Below are positions 31,110-49,776 of a stretch of 56,960 bases of DNA, piece by piece. This stretch comes from Jiella sonneratiae. GTDB lineage: Bacteria > Pseudomonadota > Alphaproteobacteria > Rhizobiales > Rhizobiaceae. A program made the translations under genes and the position numbers. Where the stretch lies: assembly GCF_017353515.1 (NCBI RefSeq), contig NZ_JAFMPY010000031.1, positions 1-56,960 of the forward strand, given 5' to 3'. The notes under the pieces were generated by a model, which saw nothing but the letters and a program-made list of their open reading frames with translations, ran no database searches and was not told where the DNA came from. Every line of letters begins with the position of its first letter. The first letter of the stretch is position 1.

Positions 31110-32021
31110 TCAGTCGATCGGCGGCGGCGCGACGGAGGCGGCGATGCTGGCGTCCAGCGCCTCGAAGTCGTGGTAGCCGATGGTCTCGTAGAGCTCGACG
31201 CGGGTCTGCATGCGCGGCAGCAGCGACTTCGTGCTGCCTTCCGCGGCGAGGGTGGCGTAGAGCTCCTTCTGCGCCTTGGCGGCGACGCGCAGCGCGCTCA
31301 CCGGCCAGATCACCATCCTGCAGCCCCAGGAGGAAAACTCCTCGAGGGTGATGTGGGGCGTGCGCCCGAACTCGGTCATGTTGGCGAGGATCGGCGCGTC
31401 GACCCGGCTGGCGAATTCGCGGAACATCTCCGCCGAGGTGAGGGCCTCGGGAAAGATCGCGTCGGCGCCGGCCTCGAGATACAGCCTGGCGCGGGCGACG
31501 GCGGCGTCCATGCCCTCGTTGGCGACCGCGTCGGTGCGGGCGATGACGTAGAGATGGCGCCGCGCCCGGGCGGCGGCGGCGACCTTCGCGGCCATGTCCT
31601 CGGGGCTGGCGAGCCGCTTGCCGTTGAGGTGGCCGCACTTCTTGGGCAGGATCTGGTCCTCGATGTGGACGGCGCCGGCGCCCGCATCCTCGAACGAACG
31701 CACCATGTGCATGACGTTGAGCGCTTCGCCGTATCCGGTGTCGCCGTCGACGAGGAGCGGCAGCATCGAGGCCCGCGCCACCTGCCGGATGTAGAAGCTC
31801 ATGTCCTCGACGGTGAGGATGCCGAGATCGGGAAGGCCCATCGACGCCGAGACGGCGGCCCCCGAGAGATAGAGCGCCTCGAAGCCCGCCTCGCGCGCCT
31901 GGAGCGCCGCCATGCCGTTGTGCGCACCGGGTATCGCGAGCGCGCCGGGGCGTTCGACGAGGGCGCGGAAGCGCTTGCCCGCCGGCTCTTCGGGCCAATC
32001 GGAGGCAACGAGATAGGTCAT
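31110..32021 (-). CDS. prpB: Methylisocitrate lyase-like PEP mutase/ICL enzyme
   Basis: A (beta/alpha)8 lyase of 303 residues in the isocitrate lyase/PEP mutase superfamily. The catalytic loop is PKKCGH, and metal-site residues are in LVDGDTGYGE and VHIEDQ. These mark a C-C lyase such as 2-methylisocitrate lyase (giving pyruvate and succinate), 2,3-dimethylmalate lyase or an oxaloacetate decarboxylase. No prpC or prpR is nearby. Two PrpD-family genes lie in the divergent operon, so it may cleave a substituted malate formed there. It follows the double-HTH LysR gene by 195 bp. Confidence 0.88.
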   Translation of the reverse strand: MTYLVASDWPEEPAGKRFRALVERPGALAIPGAHNGMAALQAREAGFEALYLSGAAVSASMGLPDLGILTVEDMSFYIRQVARASMLPLLVDGDTGYGEALNVMHMVRSFEDAGAGAVHIEDQILPKKCGHLNGKRLASPEDMAAKVAAAARARRHLYVIARTDAVANEGMDAAVARARLYLEAGADAIFPEALTSAEMFREFASRVDAPILANMTEFGRTPHITLEEFSSWGCRMVIWPVSALRVAAKAQKELYATLAAEGSTKSLLPRMQTRVELYETIGYHDFEALDASIAASVAPPPID

Positions 32022-32216: not shown

Positions 32217-33500
32217 TCAGTTGCAGGTCTGCGCCATCTCTGCCGCCGCCGCCTCCGGCTCGCCCGGCGGCATCGGCTGCGTGCCCGGCGGCCGCGACCT
32301 GTCGCGCAGGAGCTCCATGAACCGGGCCTGCGGAGCGGTCGGCACCCAGTTGGCGCGGGCGGTGATCCCGTCGGGCGGGCGGGAGATGCTCAGGCCGTAG
32401 TTCAGGGCCTCGAAATCCGCCGTCTGGGGATCGTCGGCGATCTCGCGGGAGGTGAGCAGGGTCAGGCGATCGCTGTTTCGCATCAGGGAGAGCTGGATCG
32501 CGATGGAGCTGGCGTTCACGCTGATCTGCGGCTTTTTCGCCGTATTCTCGAAGATCCGGTCGAAGGCGGCCCGCCGCTGCGTGCCGACATGCGGCACGAT
32601 CCAGTCGAATTCGACGAGATCGGCGGTGGCGATATCGTCACGGCAGGCGAGGGGATGGCCGCACCGCGCCACCACCCGGTAGCAGTCGCGGTAGAGCACC
32701 TCCTCGGTGACGTCGTCGATATTCGCCGGACACTTCATCGGCCCGAACATCAGGTCGACCTCGCCGTGCCGCAGCCGGGAGAGCAGGCTGACATAGCTGC
32801 CGTCGACGATCTCGACGGTCGCCGCCGGATAGGCGTGGAGAAAGTCGTTGACGGCGAGCGCCAGAACGTGGCCGGCAGCCAGGGGCTGCGAACCGATGAC
32901 GATGCGCGAGCGGGCCTCGCCTCTGAGGGCGCCGACTTCCTGGACAGCCGCCTCGATCTCCGAAAAGGCCAGCACCAGGCGCCGCGCCAGTTCCCGGCCG
33001 GCGGGGTTGGTGGTCATGCCGGCCGCGGTCCGCTCGTAGATCGTCTTGCCGACGATCTTCTCCAGTTCCCGGGCGTTGCGGTGGAGCGCCGTGCGCGAGA
33101 CCAGCAGCCGCTTGGAGGCTTCGTCGAAGGAGTGCGCCCGCGCGACTTCGATCAGCGAGCGGATCTGCGAGGCCGTCAGCATCGAGGCGATGCGCGGCGC
33201 GGCGGACACGTCCCCTCCGAGAGCTGCCACCGACGCGTTCATCTCGGCGAACAGACGCTCGACCCGCCGCAGGACGAGGCGGCCGGCATCCGTCAGGTAT
33301 GAGCCGGTGGAGCGCCGGTCGAGCAGCGGGCAGCCGAACCAGGCCTCGACCTTGGCGATCGACTGGGTCACCGCCGGCTGCGACACGCAGACGAGCTCGG
33401 CGGCCTGACTCACGCTGTTGCACTGCGCAACGGCGTCGAAAGCCCGGAGCCCCCGCAGATTCGGCATGGGCAGCGGCTCAGTCCGTCCCCGTTCCGGCAT
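32217..33500 (-). CDS. LysR-family regulator with two HTH domains
   Basis: A 427-residue regulator, about 125 longer than an ordinary LysR protein. A first winged helix (about residues 14-76) contains SVSQAAELVCVSQPAVTQSI. After a linker a second one (about 107-168) contains SFDEASKRLLVSRTALHRNA. A periplasmic-binding-like effector domain occupies about 194-400. Both HTH units look complete. The C-terminus is Pro/Glu-rich. ATG 33500 is taken; ATG 33467 is possible. It diverges from the 12 kb catabolic operon by 176 bp and is the natural candidate to control it and, downstream, the prpB-like gene. Confidence 0.88.
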   Translation of the reverse strand: MPERGRTEPLPMPNLRGLRAFDAVAQCNSVSQAAELVCVSQPAVTQSIAKVEAWFGCPLLDRRSTGSYLTDAGRLVLRRVERLFAEMNASVAALGGDVSAAPRIASMLTASQIRSLIEVARAHSFDEASKRLLVSRTALHRNARELEKIVGKTIYERTAAGMTTNPAGRELARRLVLAFSEIEAAVQEVGALRGEARSRIVIGSQPLAAGHVLALAVNDFLHAYPAATVEIVDGSYVSLLSRLRHGEVDLMFGPMKCPANIDDVTEEVLYRDCYRVVARCGHPLACRDDIATADLVEFDWIVPHVGTQRRAAFDRIFENTAKKPQISVNASSIAIQLSLMRNSDRLTLLTSREIADDPQTADFEALNYGLSISRPPDGITARANWVPTAPQARFMELLRDRSRPPGTQPMPPGEPEAAAAEMAQTCN

Positions 33501-33531
33501 TTCCGATCCCGCAATACTTATCGCTCTTGGA

Positions 33532-33550
33532 CCGGTTTGAATTTCACCGG
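33532..33550. promoter_or_regulatory. Inverted repeat, possible LysR operator
   Basis: CCGGT and ACCGG arms flank an AT-rich 9-base centre in the gap between the divergent LysR gene and the catabolic operon. Size, symmetry and place fit a LysR-type recognition site. With two HTH domains per subunit, longer compound sites would be expected. Confidence 0.4.
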
Positions 33551-33647
33551 CCGGGCGGAATCCTGCACCTTCCACCCAACGAGGGCAACAGGGCAGTGCG
33601 GGGGAGAGACCGCGCCCGTCGCCGACGGATCAGGGTGGGAGGAAGCC

Positions 33648-33689
33648 ATGTCTTTGTCGCAAGCTGCGGCGGCACCATGCCGCCGGTGA
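33648..33689 (+). CDS. Possible 13-codon leader ORF or frameshifted start
   Basis: An ATG at 33648 with the best ribosome binding site in the area (GGGAGG, 6 bases upstream) reads only 13 codons (MSLSQAAAAPCRR) to a TGA at 33687. It overlaps the start of the binding-protein gene in another frame. Either it is a short upstream ORF coupled to the next gene, or the true start of that gene is here and one base is lost or gained between. It is too short to judge by composition. Confidence 0.35.
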   Translation: MSLSQAAAAPCRR

Positions 33690-34678
33690 GCGCTGCCGCT
33701 CCCGCGGCTTCGGGCGCCGACGTGCTGCGGGTCGGCTGCTATCCGACCGCCAAGTCGCTGCCGCTGCGGATCGGCATCGAGAAGGGCTTCTTCGCCGCCT
33801 GCGGCCTCGACGTGTCGTTGAGCTATGAGAACAATTCCCGCCTCCAGCGCGACCGACTCGCCTCCGGCGACTTCGACGTCATCCACATCGCCGTCGACAA
33901 TGCGGTCTCGATGCTCGAGGAGGACGGGCTCGACGTCGTCGTCGTGCTGGGCGGCGACAGCGGCATGAACGAATTCTTCGTCCAGCCCGACATCGACGGC
34001 TTTGCCGGCATCCGCGGCCGGCGCGTCGTGGTGGACGCCGTCGACACGGCCTATGCGCTGCAGGCGGTCAAGATCCTCGCCGACCACGGGCTCGCCGCCG
34101 GCCGCGACTACACGCTCGATCCGGTCGGCCGGGGCGCGCTGCGGCTCGAAGCCATGCAGGCCGACCCCTCCGCTGCGGCCGCCGTGCTCAATCCGCCCTA
34201 TTCGCTCGAGGCGGAGGATCTCGGCTTCCGCTCGCTCGGCCGCACCGTCGAACTTCTCGGCGGCTATCAGGCCGGCGGCGCCTTCGTGCTGCGTGATTGG
34301 GCGCGGGCCAACGAAGACCGGCTGGTGCGCTACCTTGCCGCCTATCTCGAGGCGCTGCGCTGGATGCGGCTGCCCGGCAACCGCGCCCACTGCGTGGGCG
34401 TGCTCTGCGAACAGCTGCAGCTTTCGGCCGACGTCGCCGCCCGCTCGCTGGCGCAGCTTCTCGACCCGGACTTCGGCTTCGCCGCCGACGCCGAGATCGA
34501 CCCGGCGGGCTTCGAAAAGGTTCTCGAGCTGCGCCGAATGACGGCTAGCACGCCGGCACGGACCCCGGCCCGCGCCGCCTCGGGCGACATGATCGATCTC
34601 CGCTACTACCGCATGGCTCTCGCGCGCCTTTCGCCGCCGTCGGCCGAGCCAACCACGAACAGGCAGAACGGCATATGA
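33677..34678 (+). CDS. Substrate-binding (NMT1/THI5-like) protein without signal peptide
   Basis: A 333-residue periplasmic-binding-fold protein of the nitrate/taurine/THI5 type. It begins VLRVGCYPTAKSLPLRIGIEKGFFAACGLDV and continues with LASGDFDVIHIAVDNAVSM and a C-terminal lobe. No hydrophobic signal peptide lies in front of the fold, and no ABC permease or ATPase is nearby. It could be a cytosolic enzyme- or sensor-like member, or its 5' end may be disturbed: the strong ribosome binding site belongs to an out-of-frame ATG at 33648. It overlaps the next gene by 4 bases (ATGA), as first main gene of the catabolic operon. Confidence 0.78.
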   Translation: MPPVSAAAPAASGADVLRVGCYPTAKSLPLRIGIEKGFFAACGLDVSLSYENNSRLQRDRLASGDFDVIHIAVDNAVSMLEEDGLDVVVVLGGDSGMNEFFVQPDIDGFAGIRGRRVVVDAVDTAYALQAVKILADHGLAAGRDYTLDPVGRGALRLEAMQADPSAAAAVLNPPYSLEAEDLGFRSLGRTVELLGGYQAGGAFVLRDWARANEDRLVRYLAAYLEALRWMRLPGNRAHCVGVLCEQLQLSADVAARSLAQLLDPDFGFAADAEIDPAGFEKVLELRRMTASTPARTPARAASGDMIDLRYYRMALARLSPPSAEPTTNRQNGI

Positions 34679-35715
34679 AGACGACGCTGATCGCGGTCGG
34701 AGACGTCAACCTGATGGGCGTCACCGACCCGGCGACCCCCTTCCGGAAAGTGATGCCCGAGTTTCAGTCCGCCGATCTGGTGTTCTGCAATCTCGAATGC
34801 CTGCTCGCCGGCGGCAGCGGCGGGACCTGGGAGACCGAGGGCTTCTTCGCCGATCCTCACGTGGCGACCGAATGCCTCGCCTCCGCCGGGATCGCCGCCG
34901 TCGGGATGGCCAACAACGTCACCTACGGCGCCGAGCCGATCATGGCCTCGCTCGCCCGGCTCGACCGGCAGGGCATCCCCCACACCGGGGCCGGGGCCGA
35001 CCGCAAGGCCGCGGCGCAGCCGGCGATCGTCGAGCGCAAGGGCGTCCGCTTCGGCTTCCTGCAGCGCAGCTCGGTCTACTGGGCGACCAATCACGAAGCC
35101 ACCGACACGGCGCCCGGCATCGCCGCCCTGCGGGGCCACACCGCCTATCAGGTGCCGATGTACAAGGTGAAGCGGGAGATCCCGCCGCTCAACCGGCCCG
35201 GCATTCCCCCCTACATCGTCACCTGGGCCGACCGCGACTATCTGGCGGCCTTCGAACGGGACGTCGCGGCGCTGCGCGAGCGCGCCGACGTCGTCGTCGC
35301 CTCCTTCCATTGGGGCTTCAAGAAGGACGTCCTCGCCTACATGAGCGAGATCGCCCACGCCGCGATCGACGCCGGCGCCGACGCGGTCGTCGGGCACGGG
35401 CCGCACTATTCGCTGGGCATCGAGGTCTACAGGGGCAAGCCGATCTTCTACGGCCTCGGCAGCTTCTCCTTCCAGACCGGCCATGGCGGCTTCGTGCACG
35501 ACGCCTGGGTCGGGATGATGGCGAAGTTCGGTTTCGACGGCACGCGTCTCGACCGGGCCTCCTTCGAATTCGTCCGCCGCAACGCCGAGAACGAGACCTA
35601 TGTCTGCGAGCTCGACGCCGAGCAGGCGGAACTCGGCGACATCGTCGGCCGCAGCCGCGCCATGGGCGCGGAACTCGTCCGCGACGGCAACGAGATGGTG
35701 GTGACGCTGCCATGA
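34675..35715 (+). CDS. CapA-like metallophosphoesterase-fold protein
   Basis: A 346-residue member of the PGA_cap/CapA family (calcineurin-like fold). Metal and active-site segments are IAVGDVNLMG, NLECLLAG, GMANNVTYG, VVASFHWGF and VGHGPHYSLG. Named members help make or release poly-gamma-glutamate, but this one has no membrane anchor or signal peptide and sits in a catabolic operon. A cytoplasmic hydrolase or amidase-like role is more likely than capsule synthesis. It overlaps both neighbours by 4 bases, indicating tight co-translation with the binding protein and the first PrpD-like gene. Confidence 0.85.
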   Translation: MKTTLIAVGDVNLMGVTDPATPFRKVMPEFQSADLVFCNLECLLAGGSGGTWETEGFFADPHVATECLASAGIAAVGMANNVTYGAEPIMASLARLDRQGIPHTGAGADRKAAAQPAIVERKGVRFGFLQRSSVYWATNHEATDTAPGIAALRGHTAYQVPMYKVKREIPPLNRPGIPPYIVTWADRDYLAAFERDVAALRERADVVVASFHWGFKKDVLAYMSEIAHAAIDAGADAVVGHGPHYSLGIEVYRGKPIFYGLGSFSFQTGHGGFVHDAWVGMMAKFGFDGTRLDRASFEFVRRNAENETYVCELDAEQAELGDIVGRSRAMGAELVRDGNEMVVTLP

Positions 35716-37094
35716 CGGGGCCGACATTCTCCACCGCGGAGGACGGCCGCAGCGGGGGCGAGAGCGCCGCGCTGGCCCGCTATGCCGCCGGCCTCGGCTT
35801 CGACGACCTGCCCGAGGCCGTCGTCGACCGCGCCAAGGAATGCCTCACCGACACGGTCGGCATCGCGCTGCGCGGCCGCGACATGCCGTGGAGCCGGATC
35901 GCCCTCGACTTCGTCCGTTCCGAAGCCTCGAAGGGCGGCTCGCGGGTGATCGGCCGGGACGACGTGACGACGGCCCCGCAAGAGGCGGCCTTCGTCAACG
36001 GCATCTTCGCCCACGCCCTCGAACTCGACAGCCTCAGGAAGCCCGGTGCGGGCGTCCACCCCGGGGCGATCGTCGCCGCCGCGGCGCTGGCCGCCGCCCA
36101 GGATAAAGGAGTCGGCGGGCGCGAGCTTCTCGCCGCGATCGTCGCCGGCTTCGAGGTGCTTCTGCGGATCGGGGTCGCGACGCGGCATTCCGCCGAGCCG
36201 CGCGGTTTTCACGCGCCCGGGCTGACGGGACCGTTCGGGGCGGCCGCGGCTGCGGGGCGCATCTACGGGCTTTCGCCGGAGCGCATGACCATGGCCTTCG
36301 GCATTGCCGGCTCGACGGCCGGCGGGCTGATGCAGTTTTCGGCCGAGGGCAGGGGCGCGATGGTCAAGCGCTTCCACATCGGAAGGGCCGCTGAGAGCGG
36401 CGTCCTCGCGGCGCGTCTCGCCGCGATGGGCTACGAGGGGCCTTCCGAGATTCTGGAAGGCCGGAAGGGGTTCCTCGCCACCTACTGCCAGAGCCACGAC
36501 GTCGCGGCGCTGACCGACGGCCTCGGGACGCGTTTCGAGACGCTCAATCTCTGCCTCAAGCGCTATCCCTGCCACATCACCGCGCATACGCCGGTCTATG
36601 CCGTCGAATGCCTGCGCCGCGAGACGGGGCTGGCGGCCGGGCAGGTCGCCTCCGTCAAGGTGGTCGGGACCGACCGCATGGCCGGCAGCAACGCCGATCA
36701 GGCGCCGGGCGATCCGGCCCTTGCCAACTACAGCATCCCGTTCTGCGTCGCCGCAGCCCTGACCGGCGAGCCGGACGATCCGGCGAGCTTCGATGCCGGC
36801 CGGCTCGAGGAGCCGGCGCTGCGCGACCTCTGCCGCCGCATCGAGGTGGTCAGCGACGGGCGCAGCAGCCATTCCGACTGGACGACGACGACCATCGTCT
36901 CCTGCCGGGACGGTTCGATCCACGAACGCACCGTCGAGGAATTTCCCGGCACCCCCGCTATGCCGCTGAGCGGCGCCGCCCTGAAACGACGCTTCGAGAT
37001 CATGTCCATCGGCCGGGATCCGCAGACGACGCGCGATCTCTTCGCCCGCCTGTCGACCATCGAAAGGGAAACGTCGGTGGACTGGATCCACTGA
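35712..37094 (+). CDS. MmgE/PrpD-family protein, copy 1
   Basis: A 460-residue protein of the 2-methylcitrate dehydratase/cis-aconitate decarboxylase/iminodisuccinate epimerase fold. The helical domain has LTDTVGIALRGRD and ALELDSLRKPGAGVHPGA. The canonical second Asp of LDD-type motifs is Ser here, while the His of HPG is kept. The lid domain has MVKRFHIGRAAESG. It is clearly different in sequence from the adjacent second copy. It presumably dehydrates, hydrates or isomerises a tricarboxylate or substituted malate. Confidence 0.88.
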   Translation: MTGPTFSTAEDGRSGGESAALARYAAGLGFDDLPEAVVDRAKECLTDTVGIALRGRDMPWSRIALDFVRSEASKGGSRVIGRDDVTTAPQEAAFVNGIFAHALELDSLRKPGAGVHPGAIVAAAALAAAQDKGVGGRELLAAIVAGFEVLLRIGVATRHSAEPRGFHAPGLTGPFGAAAAAGRIYGLSPERMTMAFGIAGSTAGGLMQFSAEGRGAMVKRFHIGRAAESGVLAARLAAMGYEGPSEILEGRKGFLATYCQSHDVAALTDGLGTRFETLNLCLKRYPCHITAHTPVYAVECLRRETGLAAGQVASVKVVGTDRMAGSNADQAPGDPALANYSIPFCVAAALTGEPDDPASFDAGRLEEPALRDLCRRIEVVSDGRSSHSDWTTTTIVSCRDGSIHERTVEEFPGTPAMPLSGAALKRRFEIMSIGRDPQTTRDLFARLSTIERETSVDWIH

Positions 37095-37108
37095 CGAGAC
37101 GAGAACCC

Positions 37109-38506
37109 ATGGCGCATTCAAACGACACATCGAACCCCCACACCGCGGCCGTCGCCCGCTTCGTCTCGGACTTTCGCTACGAGATGATCCCGGCCGAGGT
37201 CCTGGCGCGCATCAAGCTCCTGGTGCTCGATTCGCTCGGCTGCGCCATCTACGGCGCCGAGCTGCCGTGGAGCCGCATCCTGCGCGAGACCCTCGGCGCG
37301 GTCGACACCACCGGCACCGCCTCGGTCTGGGGCACGGCCGAGCGTCTCTCGCCGCCGCATGCGGTGCTGGTCAACGGCGCGCTGGTGCAGAGCTTCGAGC
37401 TCGACGACGTCCACCGGGTCGGCGTCCTGCATGTCGGCGCCGTCACCCTGTCGCCGATCTTCGCGGTTCTGGAGCGCAATCCCGAGATCAGCGGCCGCGA
37501 CTTCCTCGCCGCCGTCGTCGCCGGATACGAGATCGGCCCGCGCGTCGGCATCTGCATGGGCCAGGAGCACATCGGCCAGGGCTGGCACTCGGGGGCGACG
37601 CTCGGGGTCTTCTCCGCCGCCGCCGGCGCCGCTGCGGCCCTCAGGCTCGACCACGACAAGACCGTCAACGCGCTCGGCATCGCCGGCACCCAGTCGGCCG
37701 GCCTCATGGCCGCCCAGTACGGGGCGATGGTCAAGCGCATGCATGCCGGCCGGGCGGCGCAGAGCGGCTATTACGGCGCGATCCTCGCCGAGCGCGGCTT
37801 CACCGGCATCCGCAACGTCTTCGAGAGCGACTATGGCGGCTTCTGCTCGACCTTCTCGCGCTCCCACGACCGCTACGATCTCGCGGCCCTCTCGGACGGT
37901 CTCGGCGAGCGCTTCGAGACCATGCAGATCGCGCTGAAATTCTATTCCTGCGTCGGCAGCAACCATACGACGCTGGACGGCATCCGCATGATAAAGGCGC
38001 GGCGACCCTTCACCCTCGACGAACTGGAGAAGATCGTCGTCTACGGCTCGCAGGTGACGGTCGATCACGTCGGCTGGCCCTACAGGCCCGAAGGCCTGAC
38101 TTCGGCGCAGCTGAACCTTCCCTATTGCGTCGCGACGCTGCTTCTGGAAGGCGACGCCTTCGTCGCGCAGTTCACCGAGGACAAGGTGGACGATCCCGAA
38201 CGCATCGCGCTGTCGCGCCGCGTCGAGGTCATCGAGGATCCCGAGATCACCGCGCTGGGATCGCGCTTCCGGCACAAGGTCCGGGTCGAGGTTCACCTGA
38301 AGAACGGCGAGGTCCACGAAGAGACGGTCGAGGCGCCGCGCGGCAGCGAGAAGTTCTTCGCCAGCGAAGCCGACGTCGTCGAGAAATTCCGCAAACTTGC
38401 AGGCACCCGCATGACCGGCTCGCAGCTCGAACGTGTGATCGATCTGGTGATGGGTGCCGAGACCATGACCGCGGCGGGCGATCTCGCCAGGGCGCTCTGC
38501 GTCTGA
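37109..38506 (+). CDS. MmgE/PrpD-family protein, copy 2
   Basis: A 465-residue paralogue of the preceding gene, starting 14 bp after it. Segments include LLVLDSLGCAIYGAELPWSR, SFELDDVHRVGVLHVGA and MVKRMHAGRAAQSGYYGA. Here the Asp pair is present but HVG replaces HPG, the opposite of copy 1. The two may be separate enzymes for successive steps or parts of a heteromer. In fungi and bacteria this fold also decarboxylates cis-aconitate, so decarboxylation is an alternative to hydration. Confidence 0.88.
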   Translation: MAHSNDTSNPHTAAVARFVSDFRYEMIPAEVLARIKLLVLDSLGCAIYGAELPWSRILRETLGAVDTTGTASVWGTAERLSPPHAVLVNGALVQSFELDDVHRVGVLHVGAVTLSPIFAVLERNPEISGRDFLAAVVAGYEIGPRVGICMGQEHIGQGWHSGATLGVFSAAAGAAAALRLDHDKTVNALGIAGTQSAGLMAAQYGAMVKRMHAGRAAQSGYYGAILAERGFTGIRNVFESDYGGFCSTFSRSHDRYDLAALSDGLGERFETMQIALKFYSCVGSNHTTLDGIRMIKARRPFTLDELEKIVVYGSQVTVDHVGWPYRPEGLTSAQLNLPYCVATLLLEGDAFVAQFTEDKVDDPERIALSRRVEVIEDPEITALGSRFRHKVRVEVHLKNGEVHEETVEAPRGSEKFFASEADVVEKFRKLAGTRMTGSQLERVIDLVMGAETMTAAGDLARALCV

Positions 38507-38528
38507 GCGGGCAGAAGGAGTACGAACC

Positions 38529-39401
38529 ATGCGTATCTGTCGTTTCGGGGATGATCGGCTCGGCATCGTGATCGACGGTCTCGTCCACGACGTCACGCCG
38601 CTGCAGGCCGAGATCAGGGCGTCGGCGTCCTACGTGATGAAGGGCGACGCGGTCGTCGCGGCGCTGCCGGAGTGGCGCGAACGCTTCCTCTCGGAAGCCG
38701 GCAAGGTCGCCGGCGTCCCGGTCGAAAGCGTCGATCTCCTCGCGCCCGTCGCGCGTCCGAGCAAGACGATGGCGGCGCCGACCAACTATCCCTCGCACAT
38801 CGCCGAGATGGCGCCCGCCCGCGAGGCCAACAAGTCCAAGCACAGCGGCGACATCGGCAAGGACGGGATCTTCCTCAAGGCGAACTCGGCGATCGTCGGC
38901 CCGTCGGAAGGGGTTCCCCTGCGCTTCCCCGAGCGGCGCACCGACCACGAGCTCGAATTCGTCGTCGTGATCGGCAAGGAAGGCAGCGACATCGCCGAGG
39001 CAGACGCGCTCGATCACGTCGCCGGCTACTGCCTCGGCCTCGACATGGTGGTACGCGGCCCCGAGGACCGCAGCTTCCGCAAGTCCTGCGACGGCTACGC
39101 GGTGCTCGGGCCGTGGCTGGTGACGGCCGACGAACTCACCGATCCCGGCAAGGTGCCGCTCATGCTGAAGGTCAACGGCGAGGTTCGCCAGGAGACCAAC
39201 ACCGAGCAGCTGGTCTACGGCGTCAGGCGCCTGATCGCCTTCGCCTCGTCCTTCTACACGCTCTATCCGGGCGACGTCTTCTACACGGGCACCTGCGACG
39301 GCGTCGCGCGGGTGTTCCCGGGCGACGTCATCACCGTCGAGAGCCCGATGATCGGCACCATGAACGTGCCCGTCCGGGCCCATGCGACCGGGCGTTCCTG
39401 A
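38529..39401 (+). CDS. Fumarylacetoacetate hydrolase-family protein
   Basis: A 290-residue FAH-fold enzyme, 22 bp after prpD copy 2. The C-terminal catalytic domain contains APTNYPSHI, the metal-site pair in HELEFVVVIG, DMVVRGPEDRSFRKSCDGYAVLGPW, and TGTCDGVARVFPGDVI. Family members hydrolyse C-C bonds of acylpyruvates (fumarylpyruvate, fumarylacetoacetate), or act as hydratases or decarboxylases after meta cleavage of catechols. This is a strong clue that the operon handles an aromatic ring-cleavage product. Confidence 0.92.
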   Translation: MRICRFGDDRLGIVIDGLVHDVTPLQAEIRASASYVMKGDAVVAALPEWRERFLSEAGKVAGVPVESVDLLAPVARPSKTMAAPTNYPSHIAEMAPAREANKSKHSGDIGKDGIFLKANSAIVGPSEGVPLRFPERRTDHELEFVVVIGKEGSDIAEADALDHVAGYCLGLDMVVRGPEDRSFRKSCDGYAVLGPWLVTADELTDPGKVPLMLKVNGEVRQETNTEQLVYGVRRLIAFASSFYTLYPGDVFYTGTCDGVARVFPGDVITVESPMIGTMNVPVRAHATGRS

Positions 39402-39431
39402 CGCCCGACGACCAAGGAAAGGTTTTCAGAC

Positions 39432-40232
39432 ATGCTGCTTTGGACCAACGGCCGCAAGATCTATTACGACGTCGTCGGGCCCGCTGACGCGCCGGTCGTC
39501 TATTTCGCTCACTCGCTCGCCGCCGACAGCGGCATGTGGTCCGACCAGGTGCCGGCGTTCCTGGCGGCGGGCTACCGCGTGCTGCGGGCCGACATGCGCG
39601 GCCACGGCGGCAGCGACGTTGCGCCGGGCAACTACCGCATGGAGCAGCTCATCGCCGACGCCGTGCTGCTGCTCGACCATCTGGAGATCGCGAAGGTCCA
39701 TTTCTGCGGGCTCTCGATCGGCGGCATGATCGCCCAGGGGCTCGGCATCCTGCATCCCGAACGCGTCGCCTCGCTCGTCCTCTGCGACACGCAATCGCAG
39801 TCGCCGGCCGACGCCAGGGAGCGCTGGGGCAAGCGGACGATCGTCATCCAGGACGCCAACTCGATGGCGCCGCTCGCCGAGGCGACGATGGGCCGCTGGC
39901 TGAGCGCCGAGTTCAAGCAGCGCCACCCCAATCTCTGGCAGCAGGTCCACGACACCGTCGCGGCGACCCCCGTCCAGGGCTACATCGGCTGCGCGGCGGC
40001 GATCCAGGACTTCGACTGGACGCCGCGGCTGCCCGAAATCGCCGCGCCGGCGCTGGTCCTCTACGGCACCGAGGACCCGGCGGCGCATCCGCAGGACAAC
40101 CAAAAGATCGCCGACGCGCTGCAGAACGGCGAACTCCTTGCACTCGAAGGCGCCCGCCACCTGCCGAACATGGAGGATCCGGACCGCTTCAACCGCATCG
40201 TCATCGACTGGTGCAACCGGTGGAGGGGCTAG
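39432..40232 (+). CDS. Alpha/beta hydrolase, PcaD/enol-lactonase-like
   Basis: A 266-residue alpha/beta hydrolase with nucleophile S95 in CGLSIGGMIAQG, oxyanion segment FAHSLAADSGMW, acid Asp in YGTEDPAAHP and His in ARHLPNMEDP, so the triad is complete. It resembles 3-oxoadipate enol-lactonases and the N-formylmaleamate deformylase NicD of nicotinate degradation. It would hydrolyse a lactone, ester or amide intermediate after ring opening. Thirty bp separate it from the FAH gene and four from the VOC gene. Confidence 0.9.
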   Translation: MLLWTNGRKIYYDVVGPADAPVVYFAHSLAADSGMWSDQVPAFLAAGYRVLRADMRGHGGSDVAPGNYRMEQLIADAVLLLDHLEIAKVHFCGLSIGGMIAQGLGILHPERVASLVLCDTQSQSPADARERWGKRTIVIQDANSMAPLAEATMGRWLSAEFKQRHPNLWQQVHDTVAATPVQGYIGCAAAIQDFDWTPRLPEIAAPALVLYGTEDPAAHPQDNQKIADALQNGELLALEGARHLPNMEDPDRFNRIVIDWCNRWRG

Positions 40233-40236
40233 AGCC

Positions 40237-41127
40237 ATGACGCGAGTGACGCGCATCAGCCACGCCACCTTCACGACGCCCGATCTCGACCGTCTGACCG
40301 ACTATTACGTCGAGGTTCTCGGGCTCTCCCTCGCCGCGCGCGACAAGGACCGCGCCTTCCTGGCGACGGTCACCGGCCAGCAGGCGCTGGTGCTGGAAAA
40401 GGGCGAGGTTCCGTTCTGCACGAAGATCGCCTTCCAGATCGCGCCGGGCCGGGAGCTGGGCGAGGTCGCGAAGGGGCTTGCCGAGCGGCACGGGATCGAT
40501 GCGGAGCGGCGCAGCGACGCCATGCCCGGCGTTGCCGAGATCCTCTCCTTCGCCGATCCGAAGGGCACGACGATCGAGCTCTTCTCCGACGCCGAGCCGG
40601 TGGCGTTCGACCGCACGCCCAAGGGCTTCGTGCCGCTGAAACTCGGCCACATCGCCTTCAAGGCGACCGAGCTCCAGCCTCTCGTGCGCTTCTACGAGGA
40701 GGTGCTGGGCTTTAGGGTCTCCGACTGGCGCGAGGACTTCTTCGTCTGGATGCGCTGCGGGCCGGATCACCACACCGCCAATTTCGTGCGCGGCGACAAG
40801 CCGAAGATGCATCACGTCGCCTTCGAGCTGAAGGACCAGGCCGAGATCATCCGGGCCTGCGATTTCCTCGGCAAGAACGGGTTCCCGCTGATCTACGGGC
40901 CCGGCCGGCACGTGATCGGCGACAACATCTTCACCTATCACCGCAATCCCGACGGCCAGATCGTCGAGCTCTACACCGAGCTCGCCCGGATCGATTCCGA
41001 GGAGCTCGGCTATTTCGTGCCGCGGCCGTGGCGGGAAGACCACCCCTACGAGCCGAAGACCTGGGGGCCGGGCACCGTGGGCAATCTGTGGGGACCGTCC
41101 GCCCCGCCCGACTTCAGGGACGGATGA
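40237..41127 (+). CDS. Two-module VOC protein, extradiol dioxygenase-like
   Basis: A 296-residue protein with two vicinal-oxygen-chelate modules: an N-terminal one starting ISHATFTTPDLDRLTDYYVEVLGL and a C-terminal one starting LGHIAFKATELQPLVRFYEEVLGF. The C-terminal module shows the extradiol 2-His-1-Glu metal set: H138, H192 or H193 (MHHVAFEL) and E244 (QIVELYTE). This is the type I extradiol dioxygenase layout. It would open a ring diol produced by the adjacent flavin hydroxylase, although non-oxygenase VOC enzymes cannot be excluded. Confidence 0.85.
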   Translation: MTRVTRISHATFTTPDLDRLTDYYVEVLGLSLAARDKDRAFLATVTGQQALVLEKGEVPFCTKIAFQIAPGRELGEVAKGLAERHGIDAERRSDAMPGVAEILSFADPKGTTIELFSDAEPVAFDRTPKGFVPLKLGHIAFKATELQPLVRFYEEVLGFRVSDWREDFFVWMRCGPDHHTANFVRGDKPKMHHVAFELKDQAEIIRACDFLGKNGFPLIYGPGRHVIGDNIFTYHRNPDGQIVELYTELARIDSEELGYFVPRPWREDHPYEPKTWGPGTVGNLWGPSAPPDFRDG

Positions 41128-41176
41128 GCGACATCGACGCCATGACATCGGCCGGAACCGAACCGGAGGAGAGAAC

Positions 41177-42406
41177 ATGAATGCGACGTGCAAATTCGCG
41201 ATCGTCGGCGGCGGGCTCGCCGGCCTGGCGGCCGCCAACGCCCTGAAGATGGTCGGTCTTCAGGCCGAGGTCTTCGAGACCGCGCCGGAGCTCGGCGAGA
41301 TCGGCGCCTCGGTCAACATCAGCCCGCAGGCCGTCAAGGCGCTCCGGGCGATCGGCGTCGGCGAGGCGATCGCCGCCGTCGGCCACGAATCGCCGGGGCC
41401 CTACACCCGCGCCATGCAGACCGGCGAGTTCCTGCAGGCGACCGACCGGCTGGCGGTCAAGGACAAGTACGGCGCGCCCTACTACTCCTTCCACCGGGCG
41501 GACCTGATCGACGCGCTGGCGAAGACGCTCGATCCCGCCCGCATCCATCTCGGCCACCGCCTGTCGGGCCTCGTCGAGGCCGACGATCACGTCACGCTGA
41601 ATTTCCAGAACGGCGCGAGCGTCGACGCCGACTACGTCATCGGCGCCGACGGCGTGAAGTCGGCGGTCCGCGAAGCGCTCTATGGCGAGGACAGGCCGGC
41701 CTATACGGGCCAGATGGTGTGGCGGGCGCTGCTGAAGACCGAGGACGTTCCCGAAGAGGCGATCGAGCCGCGCGGCCACACCCAGTGGGTCGGCCCCGGC
41801 AGGCATCTCATCGCCTACAAGATCCGGCAGGGCAAGCTGGTCAACGTCGTCTCCCAGGTCGACACCGACGAATGGGTCGAGGAGGGGTGGTCGATCAAGG
41901 GCGATCCCGCCGACATGCGGGCGAGCTTTCCCGGCGCCGAGCCGCGGCTCGCCAAGCTGCTCGACTGCGTGGGCGAGTGCACGAAGTGGGGGCTCTTCAC
42001 CCGTCCGATCAACGACAACTGGGGGCGCGGCCGCATCCAGATGATCGGCGACGCCGCCCACGCGATGCTGCCGAGCGCCGGGCAGGGCGCCGCCATGGCC
42101 TTCGAGGACGCCTACATCCTCGGCCGCTGGCTGGGCGCTGTCGAGGACCCGGTGGAAGCTTTCGCCGAATTCCGGCGGATCCGCATCCCGCGCGTCCACG
42201 GCGTGCAGCGCCTGTCGCTCGCCAACAAGGACTTCAAGCACATGAAGGACAGCGCCAGGCAGAAGGAGGCGATCAAGGCGGGCACCGGCAGCGTGCACGG
42301 CAAGATCGACTGGGTCTGGGGCTTCGATCCCGCCGCCGAATGGGATCGCATGCCCGACGTGCCGCCCGTCTACGCCGATCCGGCGCCGGCCGCGGCCGCG
42401 TCCTGA
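41177..42406 (+). CDS. FAD-dependent aromatic hydroxylase
   Basis: A 409-residue group A flavoprotein monooxygenase. FAD motifs are the N-terminal AIVGGGLAGLAAANAL, the middle GADGVKSAVRE and the C-terminal MIGDAAHAMLPSAGQGAAMAFEDA. Relatives are salicylate 1-hydroxylase, 3-hydroxybenzoate 6-hydroxylase and 6-hydroxynicotinate 3-monooxygenase. It probably uses NADH and O2 to hydroxylate an aromatic or pyridine carboxylic acid, giving the diol for the VOC dioxygenase encoded just upstream. GGAGG lies 6-10 bases before its ATG. Confidence 0.93.
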   Translation: MNATCKFAIVGGGLAGLAAANALKMVGLQAEVFETAPELGEIGASVNISPQAVKALRAIGVGEAIAAVGHESPGPYTRAMQTGEFLQATDRLAVKDKYGAPYYSFHRADLIDALAKTLDPARIHLGHRLSGLVEADDHVTLNFQNGASVDADYVIGADGVKSAVREALYGEDRPAYTGQMVWRALLKTEDVPEEAIEPRGHTQWVGPGRHLIAYKIRQGKLVNVVSQVDTDEWVEEGWSIKGDPADMRASFPGAEPRLAKLLDCVGECTKWGLFTRPINDNWGRGRIQMIGDAAHAMLPSAGQGAAMAFEDAYILGRWLGAVEDPVEAFAEFRRIRIPRVHGVQRLSLANKDFKHMKDSARQKEAIKAGTGSVHGKIDWVWGFDPAAEWDRMPDVPPVYADPAPAAAAS

Positions 42407-42486
42407 GCGCACGGGCGGCCATCGGACACCAAGAGAGCAGATGCCAGCAAGCGACCCGAAGGTCGGGTCAAACCAGGGAGGAAAGC

Positions 42487-43530
42487 ATGAAAATCACAAC
42501 CTCAGCCGCCCGCCGATTGGCGGTCTCGTGCCTCGCCGTCGGCTGTTGGGCCTTCGGCCCCGCGGCCGCGAAGGCCGAGAGCGTCGCCGACTTCTACGAC
42601 GGCGAGACGGTGACCCTCGTCTCGGGCTTTTCGGCCAGCGGCGAGAACGACACCTACTTCCGCCTGTGGGGCGCCAATCTCGGATCGTTCATTCCGGGCA
42701 ATCCGACCGTGCTCAACACCAACCTGACCGGCGCCGGCACCCTGATCGCCGCGAACTACATGTACAACCAAGCCGAGGCCGACGGCACCTCGATGGGCAT
42801 GTTCACCGTCGAGGCAGCCATCGAGCCGCTGCTCGGCAATCAGGCGGCGCAGTTCGACCCGACGAAGTTCAGCTGGATCGGCAGCATCTCCCGCGACGAG
42901 CAGTTCTGCGCGGTGAAGGCCGAGGGCGACGGCCCGAAGACCTTCGACGAGATCCTGAAGAACGAGGTGCTGTTCGGCACCAGCGCGCCGGCCTCCGACA
43001 CCTACCGCCAGACGGCGATCCTCAAGAACGTCCTCGGCGCCAAGATCAAGCTCGTCTCGGGCTATCACGGCATGCCGGGCGTGCTGCTCGCCCTCGAACG
43101 GGGTGAGGTGAACGGCGCCTGCGGCATCACCTCGGGGGCGCTGGAGACCAATCTTGCCGCCGAATACAAGGCCGGCAAGCTCAAGCTCGTGCTGCAGACC
43201 TCCGGTGACCCGACGAAGGAATTCGGCGACGTGCCGAGCGTCTTCGACTACGCCAAGACCGACGACCAGCGCGAACTATTGAAGTTCTTCTTCAATTCGA
43301 TGGCGATGGGCCGGCCGATCACGGCGCCGCCGGCAATTCCCGCCGATCGGCTGGAAGCCCTGCGGACGGCCTTCATGAAGAGTGTCCAGGACGAGAAGTT
43401 CCTGTCGGACGCCAAGCGCCTCCATGTCGAGGTGAAGCCGCTCTCCGGCGAGCAGATCGAGCAGCGCATGCAGGAGATCGCCAACCACTCGCCGGAGTTC
43501 TTCGAGCGGGTGAAGGAAGCCTACAAATAG
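42487..43530 (+). CDS. TctC-like solute-binding protein
   Basis: A 347-residue periplasmic binding protein of the tripartite tricarboxylate family. The signal peptide is cleaved near AAAKA|ESVAD (residue 30). The mature protein starts FYDGETVTLVSGFSASGENDTYFRLWG, a divergent form of the Bug signature, and contains GTSAPASDTYRQ. Three cysteines lie in the mature protein. GGGAGG precedes its ATG. It should capture the aromatic or acid substrate of this operon for the TctAB fusion encoded next. Confidence 0.9.
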   Translation: MKITTSAARRLAVSCLAVGCWAFGPAAAKAESVADFYDGETVTLVSGFSASGENDTYFRLWGANLGSFIPGNPTVLNTNLTGAGTLIAANYMYNQAEADGTSMGMFTVEAAIEPLLGNQAAQFDPTKFSWIGSISRDEQFCAVKAEGDGPKTFDEILKNEVLFGTSAPASDTYRQTAILKNVLGAKIKLVSGYHGMPGVLLALERGEVNGACGITSGALETNLAAEYKAGKLKLVLQTSGDPTKEFGDVPSVFDYAKTDDQRELLKFFFNSMAMGRPITAPPAIPADRLEALRTAFMKSVQDEKFLSDAKRLHVEVKPLSGEQIEQRMQEIANHSPEFFERVKEAYK

Positions 43531-43687
43531 GCTGGCGCCGCGCTTCGGCGGGTCCGGAGCCGGCCGGGCACGACGTCATCGTGCCCAAGCCAATGATGCC
43601 TCCAAGAACAGCGGAACAGAGCCGTGCCAGTTTCTTCTGGCCCGGCCGTTCTGCGGGCGCAGCCCCAGGGCTGCCAAGGATCAGACC

Positions 43688-45751
43688 ATGGACATGAGCA
43701 TGCTCGACGCGGCGACGACGGCGCTGCTGACGATACTCGATCCGTCGCGGTTGCTGCTTTTGGCCGTCGGTGTCGTCATGGGGCTGTCGCTCGGCGTCTT
43801 GCCCGGCATCGGCGGCCTCGCCGCGACCGCGCTGCTTCTGCCGTTCACGTTCACCATGGATCCGCATGCCGCCTTCGCGCTGCTGCTCGGCCTCGGCGCC
43901 GCGACGGCGACCGGCGATCCCATCCCGGCCATCCTGTTCGGCGTGCCGGGCGGCGCGGGCTCGGCCGCGACGGTTCTCGACGGCTACCCGATGGCCAAGC
44001 GCGGCGAGGCCGGGCGGGCGCTCAGCGCCGCCTACATGTCCTCGATGATCGGCGGCGTCTTCGGCGCCATGTTGATGGGGCTGACGCTGCCGCTGCTGCG
44101 GCCGCTGATGCTGTTCATCGGCTCGCCGGAACTTTTGGCATTCTCCTGTCTCGGCCTGTCGATGGTCGCGGTCCTGTCGGGCAACGCGCCGCTGCGCGGG
44201 CTGACCGCGGCAGGGCTCGGCCTGATGATCTCGATGATCGGCGCCGATCCGCAGACCGGGACGCTGCGATGGACGATGGGCAGCCTCTATCTCTGGGAAG
44301 GCCTGCCGCTGATTCCCGCGATCCTCGGTCTCTTCGCCATTCCGGAACTCGCCGATCTCGCGATTTCCCGCACCTCGATCGCCGGCGGCGCCCCTTTCGA
44401 CGCCAAGGCCGGCATGCGCGAGGGCGCGATGGACTGCTTCCGGAATTTCTGGCTGGTCGTGCGCTGCAGCTGGATCGGATCGACGCTCGGGGCGGTGCCG
44501 GGGATCGGCGGCTCGGTGATCGACTGGGTCGCCTACGGCCATGCGCTGCGCACCGAGAAGGGCGCGGAGCAGACCTTCGGTTCGGGCGACGTGCGCGGCG
44601 TCATCGCCTCGGAAGCCTCCAACAACTCGCGCGAGGGCGGCGCGCTGGTGCCCACCGTCGCCTTCGGCATTCCCGGCAGCGCCGGCATGGCGATCCTCCT
44701 CGGCGCGTTCCTGATGCACGGCCTGGTGCCGGGGCCCGACATGCTGTCGGTCAATCTCAGCGTCACCTATTCGATGGTCTGGAGCATCGCGATCGCCAAC
44801 ATCCTCGGCGCCGGCATCTGCTATCTCCTCAGCGGCCAGTTCGCCAAGCTCGCGCAGCTGCGCTACACCCTGATCCTGCCGAGCGTCCTCAGCATCATCT
44901 TCATCGGCGCCTTCCAGGGGTCGCAGCAGTGGGGCGACCTCTACACGATGATGATCTTCGGCCTCGTCGGCTGGACGATGAAGATGCTGAAATGGCCGCG
45001 CCCGCCGCTCATTCTCGGCCTCGTCCTCGGCGCGTCGGTGGAGCGCTACCTCTTCATCTCGATCGAGCGCTACGGCATCGAATGGTTTAGCCGCCCGATC
45101 GTGCTCGTGCTCTTCGGCTTCGCCGCCCTCGGCCTGCTCCGGCCGCTGATCCGCGACGCCAGGGCGCACGGCAGCTGGCGGAACATGCTGGCCGACTACG
45201 GTCGCCCGGCATTCCGCGCGACGGATCTCTTCAACCTCCTGTTCATCGCCGTGCTGGTCTTGATGCTCTACGAGGCGGCCGGCTGGAACTTCAAAGCCAA
45301 GATCATCCCGATGGTGGTCGGCATCTCGGCGCTGATCTTCGCGGTGCTCAGCCTGGTCAATCAGGTCTGCCGCCGGCTGGAACGGGAGCGGCGGCACGGC
45401 CTCGCCGACGACGCGAAGGCGAACGTCTCCCGCAAGATCCACATGGATCTCGCCTCTGACACGGCGCATCTCACCAGGAAGCAGGTCTTCACCCGTGCGG
45501 CGAGCTTCTTCGGCTGGCTCACCGGCTTCCTGGTCTCGATGTCGATCATCGGCCTCGTCCCGACGGTGCCGCTGTTCATCGCCGGCTACATGCGCACCGA
45601 AGCGCGCGAACCCTGGCGGATCGTGCTGCCGATGGCGATCGGCATGACCGTCTTCATCGCCGCACTCTTCAACTACTTCCTGCCGATGGCCTGGCCCCCG
45701 ACCTTCCTGGGGCACTGGTTCCCGGCGCTGAAGGTCATCCCGTCGGTGTGA
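43688..45751 (+). CDS. TctA-TctB fusion permease
   Basis: A 687-residue membrane protein. Residues 1 to about 490 are a full TctA permease (GVLPGIGGLAATALLLPFTF, FGVPGGAGSAATVLDGYPMA, VPGIGGSVIDWVAYGHA). From about 510 to the end (ATDLFNLLFIAVLVLMLYEA, IIPMVVGISALIFAVLSLV, then two further helical hairpins) the sequence matches the four-helix TctB plan. No separate tctB exists in this operon, which supports a functional fusion. It lies 157 bp after tctC and ends before a strong terminator. It imports the substrate captured by the upstream TctC protein. Confidence 0.85.
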   Translation: MDMSMLDAATTALLTILDPSRLLLLAVGVVMGLSLGVLPGIGGLAATALLLPFTFTMDPHAAFALLLGLGAATATGDPIPAILFGVPGGAGSAATVLDGYPMAKRGEAGRALSAAYMSSMIGGVFGAMLMGLTLPLLRPLMLFIGSPELLAFSCLGLSMVAVLSGNAPLRGLTAAGLGLMISMIGADPQTGTLRWTMGSLYLWEGLPLIPAILGLFAIPELADLAISRTSIAGGAPFDAKAGMREGAMDCFRNFWLVVRCSWIGSTLGAVPGIGGSVIDWVAYGHALRTEKGAEQTFGSGDVRGVIASEASNNSREGGALVPTVAFGIPGSAGMAILLGAFLMHGLVPGPDMLSVNLSVTYSMVWSIAIANILGAGICYLLSGQFAKLAQLRYTLILPSVLSIIFIGAFQGSQQWGDLYTMMIFGLVGWTMKMLKWPRPPLILGLVLGASVERYLFISIERYGIEWFSRPIVLVLFGFAALGLLRPLIRDARAHGSWRNMLADYGRPAFRATDLFNLLFIAVLVLMLYEAAGWNFKAKIIPMVVGISALIFAVLSLVNQVCRRLERERRHGLADDAKANVSRKIHMDLASDTAHLTRKQVFTRAASFFGWLTGFLVSMSIIGLVPTVPLFIAGYMRTEAREPWRIVLPMAIGMTVFIAALFNYFLPMAWPPTFLGHWFPALKVIPSV

Positions 45752-45805
45752 GCCGGCGGGACCCTCGGCGGCGGTGGCCGCCGCCGAGGCCGGAGATCAA
45801 AATCG

Positions 45806-45845
45806 AAAGCCGCCCTTCCGGACCGGGAGGGCGGCTTTTCTCTTT
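45806..45845 (+). terminator. Strong intrinsic terminator of the catabolic operon
   Basis: AAAGCCGCCCT (45806-45816) pairs perfectly with AGGGCGGCTTT (45828-45838). Two or three more pairs can form inside, and TTTTCTCTTTT follows on the plus strand. It ends the rightward operon 55 bases after the permease stop. Confidence 0.9.
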
Positions 45846-45961: not shown

Positions 45962-46007
45962 GAGCCGGCGGGCGGGCCGGTCGGCCGGCCGGCCCGCCCG
46001 CCGGTTC
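45962..46007. other. Long GC hairpin after the TRAP/HD operon
   Basis: A 16-bp perfect inverted repeat (45965-45980 with 45989-46004), extendable by three more pairs including one G-T, around an 8-base loop. It abuts the stop codon of the HD-domain gene on the minus strand. No T-run follows, so it may be an RNA-stabilising or Rho-assisted 3' end. Confidence 0.7.
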
Positions 46008-46659: not shown

Positions 46660-46677
46660 GGCGAAGCTCCTGTCTTG

Positions 46678-48545: not shown

Positions 48546-48551
48546 CGCCGC

Positions 48552-49613: not shown

Positions 49614-49724
49614 GATATTCCTCCCATGGTGCGCCGCCGGGAAGCGGGCGCGGATTGGTTCGCCGACCGGCTATCCGGTCGGAGGCCGGTCCTCCCCGAC
49701 GGATGGCACGCTATTCTCTTTGAA

Positions 49725-49750
49725 TAATCTGAGCAAATTTGATTATCTGA
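49725..49750. promoter_or_regulatory. Direct repeats and promoter-like DNA between dctP and lysR
   Basis: TAATCTGA (49725-49732) and TTATCTGA (49743-49750) repeat at 18 bp, around the palindrome CAAATTTG (49734-49741), in an AT-rich island of otherwise GC-rich DNA. On the plus strand TTGAAT (49720-49725) and TTATCT (49743-49748) are 17 bp apart and could drive the lysR gene. A LysR protein probably binds here and controls both directions. Confidence 0.45.
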
Positions 49751-49776
49751 GGGGGATTGATTGGGAATTTCTAAGA

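Follow-up and report, generated by a model that had tools for sequence, protein, structure and literature searches.

Do the enzymes of aromatic ring cleavage and those of methylcitrate-type metabolism, when their genes stand in one row, serve a single catabolic route or two? The question is raised by a locus of Jiella sonneratiae (Alphaproteobacteria) within a stretch of 56,960 nucleotides, hereafter the window (RefSeq assembly GCF_017353515.1, contig NZ_JAFMPY010000031.1, positions 1 to 56,960), in which a first-pass annotation made from the sequence alone had noticed a candidate ring-cleavage operon with two PrpD-type proteins. We consider the chances about even that this is a composite catabolic locus for a (hydroxy)aromatic or heteroaromatic acid, in which what ring cleavage yields passes on to enzymes of the PrpD and PrpB type. 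A narrower version, put forward tentatively, is that of a previously undescribed aromatic route ending in a methylaconitate/methylisocitrate-type finish, carried out by two specialised MmgE/PrpD proteins together with PrpB and yielding pyruvate and succinate; that such a finish would replace the usual acetyl-CoA/succinyl-CoA or pyruvate/oxaloacetate endings is likewise doubtful.

Gene content of the locus

The row consists of ten open genes on the plus strand, spanning about 33.6-45.75 kb and followed by an intrinsic terminator, with a PrpB-type lyase gene nearby on the minus strand:

33635..34678, plus: NMT1/SsuA-like binding protein (NMT1_2; PF13379, 1.4e-9)
34675..35715, plus: CapA (PGA_cap) family protein (PF09587, 4.8e-52)
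35712..37094, plus: PrpD1, MmgE/PrpD family (MmgE_PrpD N and C domains)
37109..38506, plus: PrpD2, MmgE/PrpD family, a distinct conserved subtype (MmgE_PrpD N and C domains)
38529..39401, plus: FAH-family hydrolase (PF01557, 2.9e-47; nearest solved protein maleylpyruvate hydrolase 6jvv, 2.6e-46)
39432..40232, plus: alpha/beta hydrolase (ABH) resembling PcaD, 3-oxoadipate enol-lactonase (Abhydrolase; TIGR02427; 2xua)
40237..41127, plus: predicted two-domain VOC (type I) extradiol dioxygenase (Glyoxalase Pfam; alignment over both domains with homoprotocatechuate 2,3-dioxygenase, HPCD)
41177..42406, plus: group A flavin hydroxylase (FMO), 409 aa (PF01494, FAD_binding_3)
42487..43530, plus: possible divergent periplasmic binding protein of the tripartite tricarboxylate transport (TTT) type, labelled TctC (weak assignment, mainly by position)
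43688..45751, plus: fused TctA-TctB tripartite tricarboxylate permease (PF01970, 5e-121; PF07331, 1e-9)
45805..45839, plus: intrinsic terminator (16-pair stem, loop of 3, T-rich tail)
31110..32021, minus: PrpB-type methylisocitrate lyase of the phosphoenolpyruvate (PEP) mutase/isocitrate lyase superfamily (PF13714; TIGR02317; nearest solved 4iqd and 1mum)

The gene order and the near-continuous arrangement on one strand that the first-pass annotation described are borne out by the Pfam families and by intergenic distances of -4 to 157 bp overall: -4 (binding protein/CapA), -4 (CapA/PrpD1), 14 (PrpD1/PrpD2) and 22 bp (PrpD2/FAH) in the 5' part, followed by 30 (FAH/ABH), 4 (ABH/VOC), 49 (VOC/FMO), 80 (FMO/TctC) and 157 bp (TctC/TctAB) in the 3' part. 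The strong terminator placed at the end of the row was recovered as well. Its stem is by far the longest among the terminator-like sites of a scan that returned eight against 6.4 (sd 2.4) expected in shuffled sequence, a total not above chance, and a scan for sigma-70-like promoters found none (0.8 expected). Protein typing covered 18 proteins encoded at 29.7-50.7 kb of the window; neither PrpC nor TcuA is among them, in a search that did not extend to the rest of the genome.

Both PrpD proteins belong to the MmgE/PrpD superfamily, with PF03972 and PF19305 above the gathering score in each, and they share only 31% identity. Against the 2-methylcitrate dehydratase models TIGR02330, NF006943 and NF042438 (cut-offs 458-950 bits), PrpD1 scores at most 36.4 and PrpD2 at most 53.7 bits. 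The solved proteins nearest to both are iminodisuccinate (IDS) epimerase and cis-aconitate decarboxylase, while 2-methylcitrate dehydratase is missing from the list for PrpD1 and comes last in that for PrpD2. The proposed joining of ring cleavage with methylcitrate-type enzymes stands in so far as the FMO, VOC, FAH and PcaD-like genes are coupled to those for the PrpD proteins and the TTT permease, and falls short in that the PrpD proteins fail the dehydratase models. If H103, H159, K207, K272 and H277 are taken to be the active-site residues of cis-aconitate decarboxylase, as we assume, PrpD1 keeps all five and PrpD2 has Val at the position of H277. In the alignment this position is Val in seven of seven PrpD2-type sequences and His in seven of eight of the PrpD1 type (the exception, locus L063 in our numbering, is from a Shinella plasmid). 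Judged from sequence, residues held in common with the decarboxylase do not fix the reaction of either protein. The genome of J. sonneratiae contains seven MmgE/PrpD matches in total, with four further genes within 21 kb on contig C19 (7545-28497; L001, L004, L005 and L006) and a fifth on contig C24.

For the C-C cleavage of the PrpB type that had been predicted, a fitting gene lies adjacent to the row: the PrpB-type protein passes TIGR02317 with 416.1 bits (cut-off 354.4) and is the sole match at E<=1e-40 in its own genome.

The remaining enzymes of the row, namely the FAH hydrolase, the PcaD-like hydrolase, the VOC protein and the flavin hydroxylase, form a second module that is ordinary aromatic catabolism. 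The VOC protein has the two-domain fold, the His-His-Glu metal site and the His/His/Tyr acid-base residues of a type I extradiol dioxygenase, with roles and numbers as described for HPCD. All six residues are kept in 22/22 aligned sequences (that of the window and those of 11 genome loci, of 8 plasmid loci and of 2 contigs; L025, at 27% identity, was left out). The HpaD model TIGR02295 is matched with 163.9 bits, below its cut-off of 321.4. At the position of HPCD Arg243, presumably the contact of the substrate carboxylate, the window protein has Tyr and the 21 aligned relatives have Trp, and homoprotocatechuate is therefore unlikely as its substrate. The FAH protein scores 122.8 bits as HpaG-like, far under the cut-off of 276.4, and the ABH reaches 237 bits with the PcaD model TIGR02427, just under the cut-off of 255.85. 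The flavin hydroxylase falls below both the 3-hydroxybenzoate 6-monooxygenase model NF006021 (219.6 bits, cut-off 459) and the salicylate 1-monooxygenase model TIGR03219 (202.1 bits, cut-off 446.35), and scores 79.7 bits with an MhpA-type model. Its nearest solved relatives are tropone 2-monooxygenase and 6-hydroxynicotinate 3-monooxygenase (8rqh, 5eow) and vanillate and salicylate hydroxylases, none clearly preferred: vanillate hydroxylase scores about as high as the first two and the salicylate hydroxylases somewhat lower.

Of the importer, the TctA and TctB parts are above cut-off. The label of the TctC candidate rests mainly on position, because it has neither a Pfam match at E values up to 10 nor one in NCBIfam, and its best solved match, a TTT binding protein, has only E = 0.02.

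The two gene sets in other genomes

Parts of the first module (CapA, PrpD1, PrpD2, PrpB and the TTT importer) turn up again in other genomes of the class to which J. sonneratiae belongs. Orthologues of PrpD2 with 65-70% identity are present in six genomes (G1057, G829, G1134, G1130, G025 and G1366), and in five of these, G1134 being the exception, a PrpD1 relative (39-47%) lies within 20 kb, adjoining PrpD2 in three (L069, L071, L076) and about 9-10 kb off in two. PrpB (51-56%) directly adjoins PrpD2 in G025 and G1366 (L080, L081); one search gave a single in-frame TGA in the G025 match, yet an open frame of 299 codons is listed there. A PrpB of 64-67% identity stands on another contig than PrpD2 in G1057 and G1130, adjoining a TcuA-type gene, and in G1130 a PrpF-family gene lies one gene from PrpB, after the TcuA-type gene. 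A TcuA-type dehydrogenase gene is found within 10 kb of PrpD2 or adjoining PrpB in four genomes, and the relatives' TcuA passes NF006130 (cut-off 369) in five of five loci tested, with 421-567 bits. Generic ABH matches also occur in the PrpD2 loci (30% in L080, 28% in L089). Near the PrpD pair of G1130 (L076, 5463-7202) and of G1057 (L069, 17083-18807) we noticed, by eye, AtuA-family-like and DUF4387-like genes, the former with no NCBIfam match; at a Diaphorobacter locus (L061), annotated AtuA, DUF4387 and PrpD genes are adjacent. This neighbourhood may belong to another acid pathway.

Twin PrpD genes and CapA had been regarded as distinctive of the operon, but both occur elsewhere, including CapA beside PrpD. 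CapA relatives at E<=1e-15 are found in four of eight chosen genomes when its own is counted (3/7 others), at 53% identity in G829, 49% in G1057 and weakly in G1134, all of them away from the PrpD pair. That of G1057 is split between the ends of two contigs, and its two pieces may belong to a single gene; one of them lies one gene from a gene of the PEP-mutase family, which is followed by an aconitase-type subunit. At the Shinella plasmid locus L063 a more distant CapA (28%) adjoins PrpD and aconitase. The stretch there (record 101442-120734) holds CapA, MmgE/PrpD, AcnA, PcaC, PEP mutase and TTT genes as well as one for 4-carboxy-4-hydroxy-2-oxoadipate aldolase, and is possibly a sister tricarboxylate pathway. 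Among the five plasmid PrpD neighbourhoods compared, one of them (L062) without annotation, three (L062, L063, L064) have a PrpB-like match (35-43%) no more than 8 kb from the PrpD relative.

With the J. sonneratiae genome counted, PrpD1 is present in 4/385 class genomes at E<=1e-75 and PrpD2 in 3/199 genomes of the same family as J. sonneratiae at E<=1e-120. At E<=1e-130, PrpD2 is also present in 3/11 genomes of the order to which G1057 belongs, a set without J. sonneratiae. The plasmid collection gave 9 matches to PrpD1, 61 to PrpD2 and none to CapA at E<=1e-30.

The second module shows a recurrent association of its own. We compared 22 loci of VOC relatives (11 genome loci, 8 fetched of 21 plasmid hits, and 3 contigs), and an FAH match at E<=1e-8 lies near VOC in 19 of them, always within 8 kb and in 18 cases within 5 kb, in many on the opposite strand. 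By source these are 9/11 genome loci, 8/8 fetched plasmid loci and 2/3 contigs, the loci without a match being L024, L046 and L056. The 22 loci are not independent, since a single genus supplies 8 of the 11 genome loci. A rough control gave an FAH match in one of eight FMO-relative loci (L092) and in zero of the six loci of PrpD2 orthologues. PrpD, CapA and PrpB have no match at E<=1e-8 in the 22 VOC loci, and the window VOC has none in the eight FMO-relative loci. Individual loci hold further matches to genes of the window: L043 has matches to its ABH (32%) and, weakly, its FMO (23%), L040 to its binding protein (32%), and the FMO-relative locus L058 to TctA (31%).

Counting the J. sonneratiae genome unless stated otherwise, VOC is present in 12/397 order genomes at E<=1e-50 and in 8/398 phylum genomes at E<=1e-60, all eight among those 12; FMO in 13/61 relatives at E<=1e-60 (40% identity for the best match other than itself) and in 6/318 class genomes at E<=1e-75. 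For the genus to which G252 belongs, a set without J. sonneratiae and without a positive control, FMO was found in 0/146 genomes at E<=1e-90, a weak null because the best relative elsewhere reached only 3.6e-82. Among plasmids, VOC matched 21 records at up to 48% identity and FMO two at E<=1e-60, and genome contigs scanned with VOC gave three loci at 27-33%.

One pathway or two

A TcuA-type dehydrogenase in the relatives would produce an aconitate-like acid. The typed proteins of the window include no TcuA, and the ring-cleavage set stands after PrpD2 and ahead of the importer. Most simply, the unsaturated polycarboxylate would here come from ring cleavage. Two ready-made modules would then have been joined, PrpD1-PrpD2-PrpB(-CapA) for a polycarboxylate and a ring-cleavage module that takes the place of TcuA. 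The fused TctAB permease with its probable binding protein would import the acid; the group A flavoprotein would hydroxylate the ring, giving a di- or trihydroxy compound, which the VOC enzyme would open by extradiol cleavage; the FAH hydrolase could split an acylpyruvate-like product, as reported for HcdC and maleylpyruvate hydrolase, and the PcaD-like hydrolase could open a lactone, ester or amide. PrpD1 and PrpD2 may isomerise or hydrate (or decarboxylate) the resulting unsaturated di- or tricarboxylate, and the neighbouring PrpB-type lyase would cleave it to pyruvate and a dicarboxylate such as succinate. Gene content, spacing, terminator, the conservation of catalytic residues and the recurrence of parts of each module are observed; the substrate, the order of steps and the replacement of TcuA are what we infer here, together with any role of CapA and of the binding protein.

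Several observations weigh against this scheme. The conserved co-occurrence of its families, for which the first-pass annotation had proposed a survey, did not emerge from the neighbourhood comparison: the full block is not conserved in the genomes examined. The two modules are joined in the window only, so that their linkage rests on one operon, and the PrpD/PrpB/CapA half and the ring-cleavage half lie apart in every relative fetched, which comes close to the outcome that the annotation itself had named as speaking against its proposal. FMO, VOC and FAH are matched in none of the six PrpD2-orthologue loci, and the best relatives found for the ring-cleavage enzymes are distant (VOC 51%, FMO 40%) and without assigned function. 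Neither PrpD protein passes a 2-methylcitrate dehydratase model, so that the hydration step is putative; PrpB stays below the second PrpB model, NF008455 (330.8 bits, cut-off 353), and its gene is on the opposite strand with a regulator gene between it and the operon. In other genomes, the best PrpB relative has only 40% identity in G829 and 37% in G1134, a further genome (G974) has a PrpD1 relative (44%) and no PrpD2 at E<=1e-130, and the relatives' TcuA passes TIGR02485 (cut-off 372.55) in 0/5 loci, with 177-282 bits.

The same separation of the halves is an argument for the strongest alternative, that two independent pathways share one promoter, PrpD, PrpB and CapA acting on an imported tricarboxylate-like acid and FAH, ABH, VOC and FMO on an unrelated aromatic acid. 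We regard this as possible although on the unlikely side, and consider the recent fusion that goes with it, one lacking metabolic continuity, about equally unlikely. It accords with the PrpD half having a likely substrate source of its own elsewhere, in TcuA, and with TTT permeases going with that half, TctA matches lying near PrpD genes in L075, L080 and L081. It sits less well with the window itself, where the typed proteins include no TcuA and where the ring-cleavage genes are not appended at an end but inserted, at spacings of 4-80 bp, after PrpD2 and before the importer.

The ring could also be that of a pyridine carboxylate: a NicC-like FMO would act on a hydroxypyridine carboxylate, the ABH would deformylate as NicD does, and aconitate-type acids, reportedly proposed as products of citrazinate and isonicotinate, would result. 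We think this improbable. It fits that 6-hydroxynicotinate 3-monooxygenase is one of the solved proteins closest to the FMO, but tropone 2-monooxygenase and vanillate hydroxylase score about equally; the operon has no NicX-type dioxygenase, amidase or molybdenum hydroxylase, the ABH is PcaD-like, and no isonicotinate or citrazinate cluster with these genes appears among the matches listed in open-licence PMC literature, at the level of titles and abstract starts. The pyridine option, which the first-pass annotation had left open for the substrate, has no specific support. A degradation of the A-ring of the flavonoid or phenylpropanoid type, as in fde/ifc or hcd, with PrpD and PrpB for the side chain, is just as improbable. 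It has in its favour the FAD monooxygenase and glyoxalase-fold or type I dioxygenase that published clusters share (PMC11069340, PMC6222606), and two VOC relatives near MhpA-type hydroxylases, one of them also with a cupin, but is opposed by an FMO much nearer the 3-hydroxybenzoate and salicylate hydroxylase models than the MhpA type, by an operon without a cupin, and by a TTT permease that suggests a small carboxylate.

Flanking genes and comparison with known systems

The range first annotated ends short of the locus, as the genes for LysR, PrpB and MFS proteins lie outside it and are divergent. Besides PrpB these are:

32217..33575, minus: LysR-type regulator with two tandem helix-turn-helix (HTH) segments (HTH_1 in two stretches and a substrate domain; self-alignment)
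29731..31005, minus: MFS transporter (MFS_3), which would be third in the divergent unit, to judge by its position only

The HTH segments of the regulator share 72 alignable residues in the self-alignment; two weak relatives (in L070 and L054) align from residue 99 onward only, over the second segment. The binding protein that opens the row had been called leaderless, which depends on the start chosen (33596, 33635 or 33677): with an in-frame start further upstream, the protein would gain a short V-A-S-C stretch. The operon contains no ABC permease or ATPase for it. Past the terminator, an HD-domain protein and a TRAP transporter (DctM, DctQ, DctP) are encoded on the minus strand at 46006-49613, and a second LysR gene (49600-50679, plus) is divergent from them. 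In an empty-site search, none of nine genomes of the same genus had a match to the downstream DctP at E<=1e-80, and therefore no empty insertion site is definable.

Among described systems, the homoprotocatechuate (hpa/hpc) pathway resembles the locus in its HpaD-like VOC and HpaG-like FAH proteins, but both are far below the cut-offs, the Arg243 position differs and the operon has no dehydrogenase; by the HpaD and HpaG models the locus is not a homoprotocatechuate cluster. The ring-cleavage enzyme families that we take to belong to gentisate and nic clusters are not in the operon. In the methylcitrate cycle, prpC (2-methylcitrate synthase) accompanies prpB and prpD, and an AcnD/PrpF variant exists. 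The window shares with it a PrpB that passes its model beside MmgE/PrpD proteins, but PrpD1 and PrpD2 fail the dehydratase models, PrpC is not among the 18 typed proteins, and by the curated PrpD models the locus does not read as this cycle.

The claim that no described pathway has this combination agrees with the literature as far as it was covered: among the matches listed in open-licence PMC articles, at the level of titles and abstract starts, which is weak evidence, no set of MmgE/PrpD with extradiol, TTT, CapA, TcuA or aromatic genes is described, nor, for the isonicotinate/citrazinate and dipicolinate pathways, a cluster of the window's make-up. Within the data examined the combination is new, but its parts are known. 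To our knowledge, MmgE/PrpD proteins, at times numerous per genome, are mostly without assigned substrates, and a locus that ties two conserved PrpD subtypes and PrpB to a ring-cleavage set provides a concrete hypothesis for their roles.

The closest likeness to the ring-cleavage set, by description, is the hcdABC operon of Pseudomonas mandelii 7HK4, in which an FAD hydroxylase, a type I extradiol dioxygenase and an FAA-family hydrolase are likewise encoded together. It has been tested experimentally, the ring-fission product of trihydroxyphenyl propionate being reported as hydrolysed, and it differs in having, as described, three genes and none for PrpD, PrpB, CapA or TTT proteins, and in HcdA, which at about 62 kDa is compared there with MhpA-type enzymes, unlike the window FMO (PMC6222606). 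In the window the corresponding families are all on one strand, with the ABH gene separating FAH from VOC. The fde (naringenin) and ifc (isoflavone) clusters also pair a glyoxalase-type enzyme for ring cleavage (FdeC) with an FAD monooxygenase, and ifc shares an alpha/beta hydrolase with the operon; unlike the operon they have cupin genes, and the accessible portions of the sources mention no PrpD/PrpB module (PMC11303751, PMC11069340). For the other half of the locus the nearest likeness is with tricarballylate utilisation (tcuA-type) loci, where TcuA-type genes have relatives of PrpD1, PrpD2 and PrpB nearby or directly adjoining, whereas the window, with no TcuA among its typed proteins, has ring-cleavage genes instead. 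The association of PrpD1, PrpD2, PrpB and TcuA in these relatives offers an independent handle on what would be the same lower pathway.

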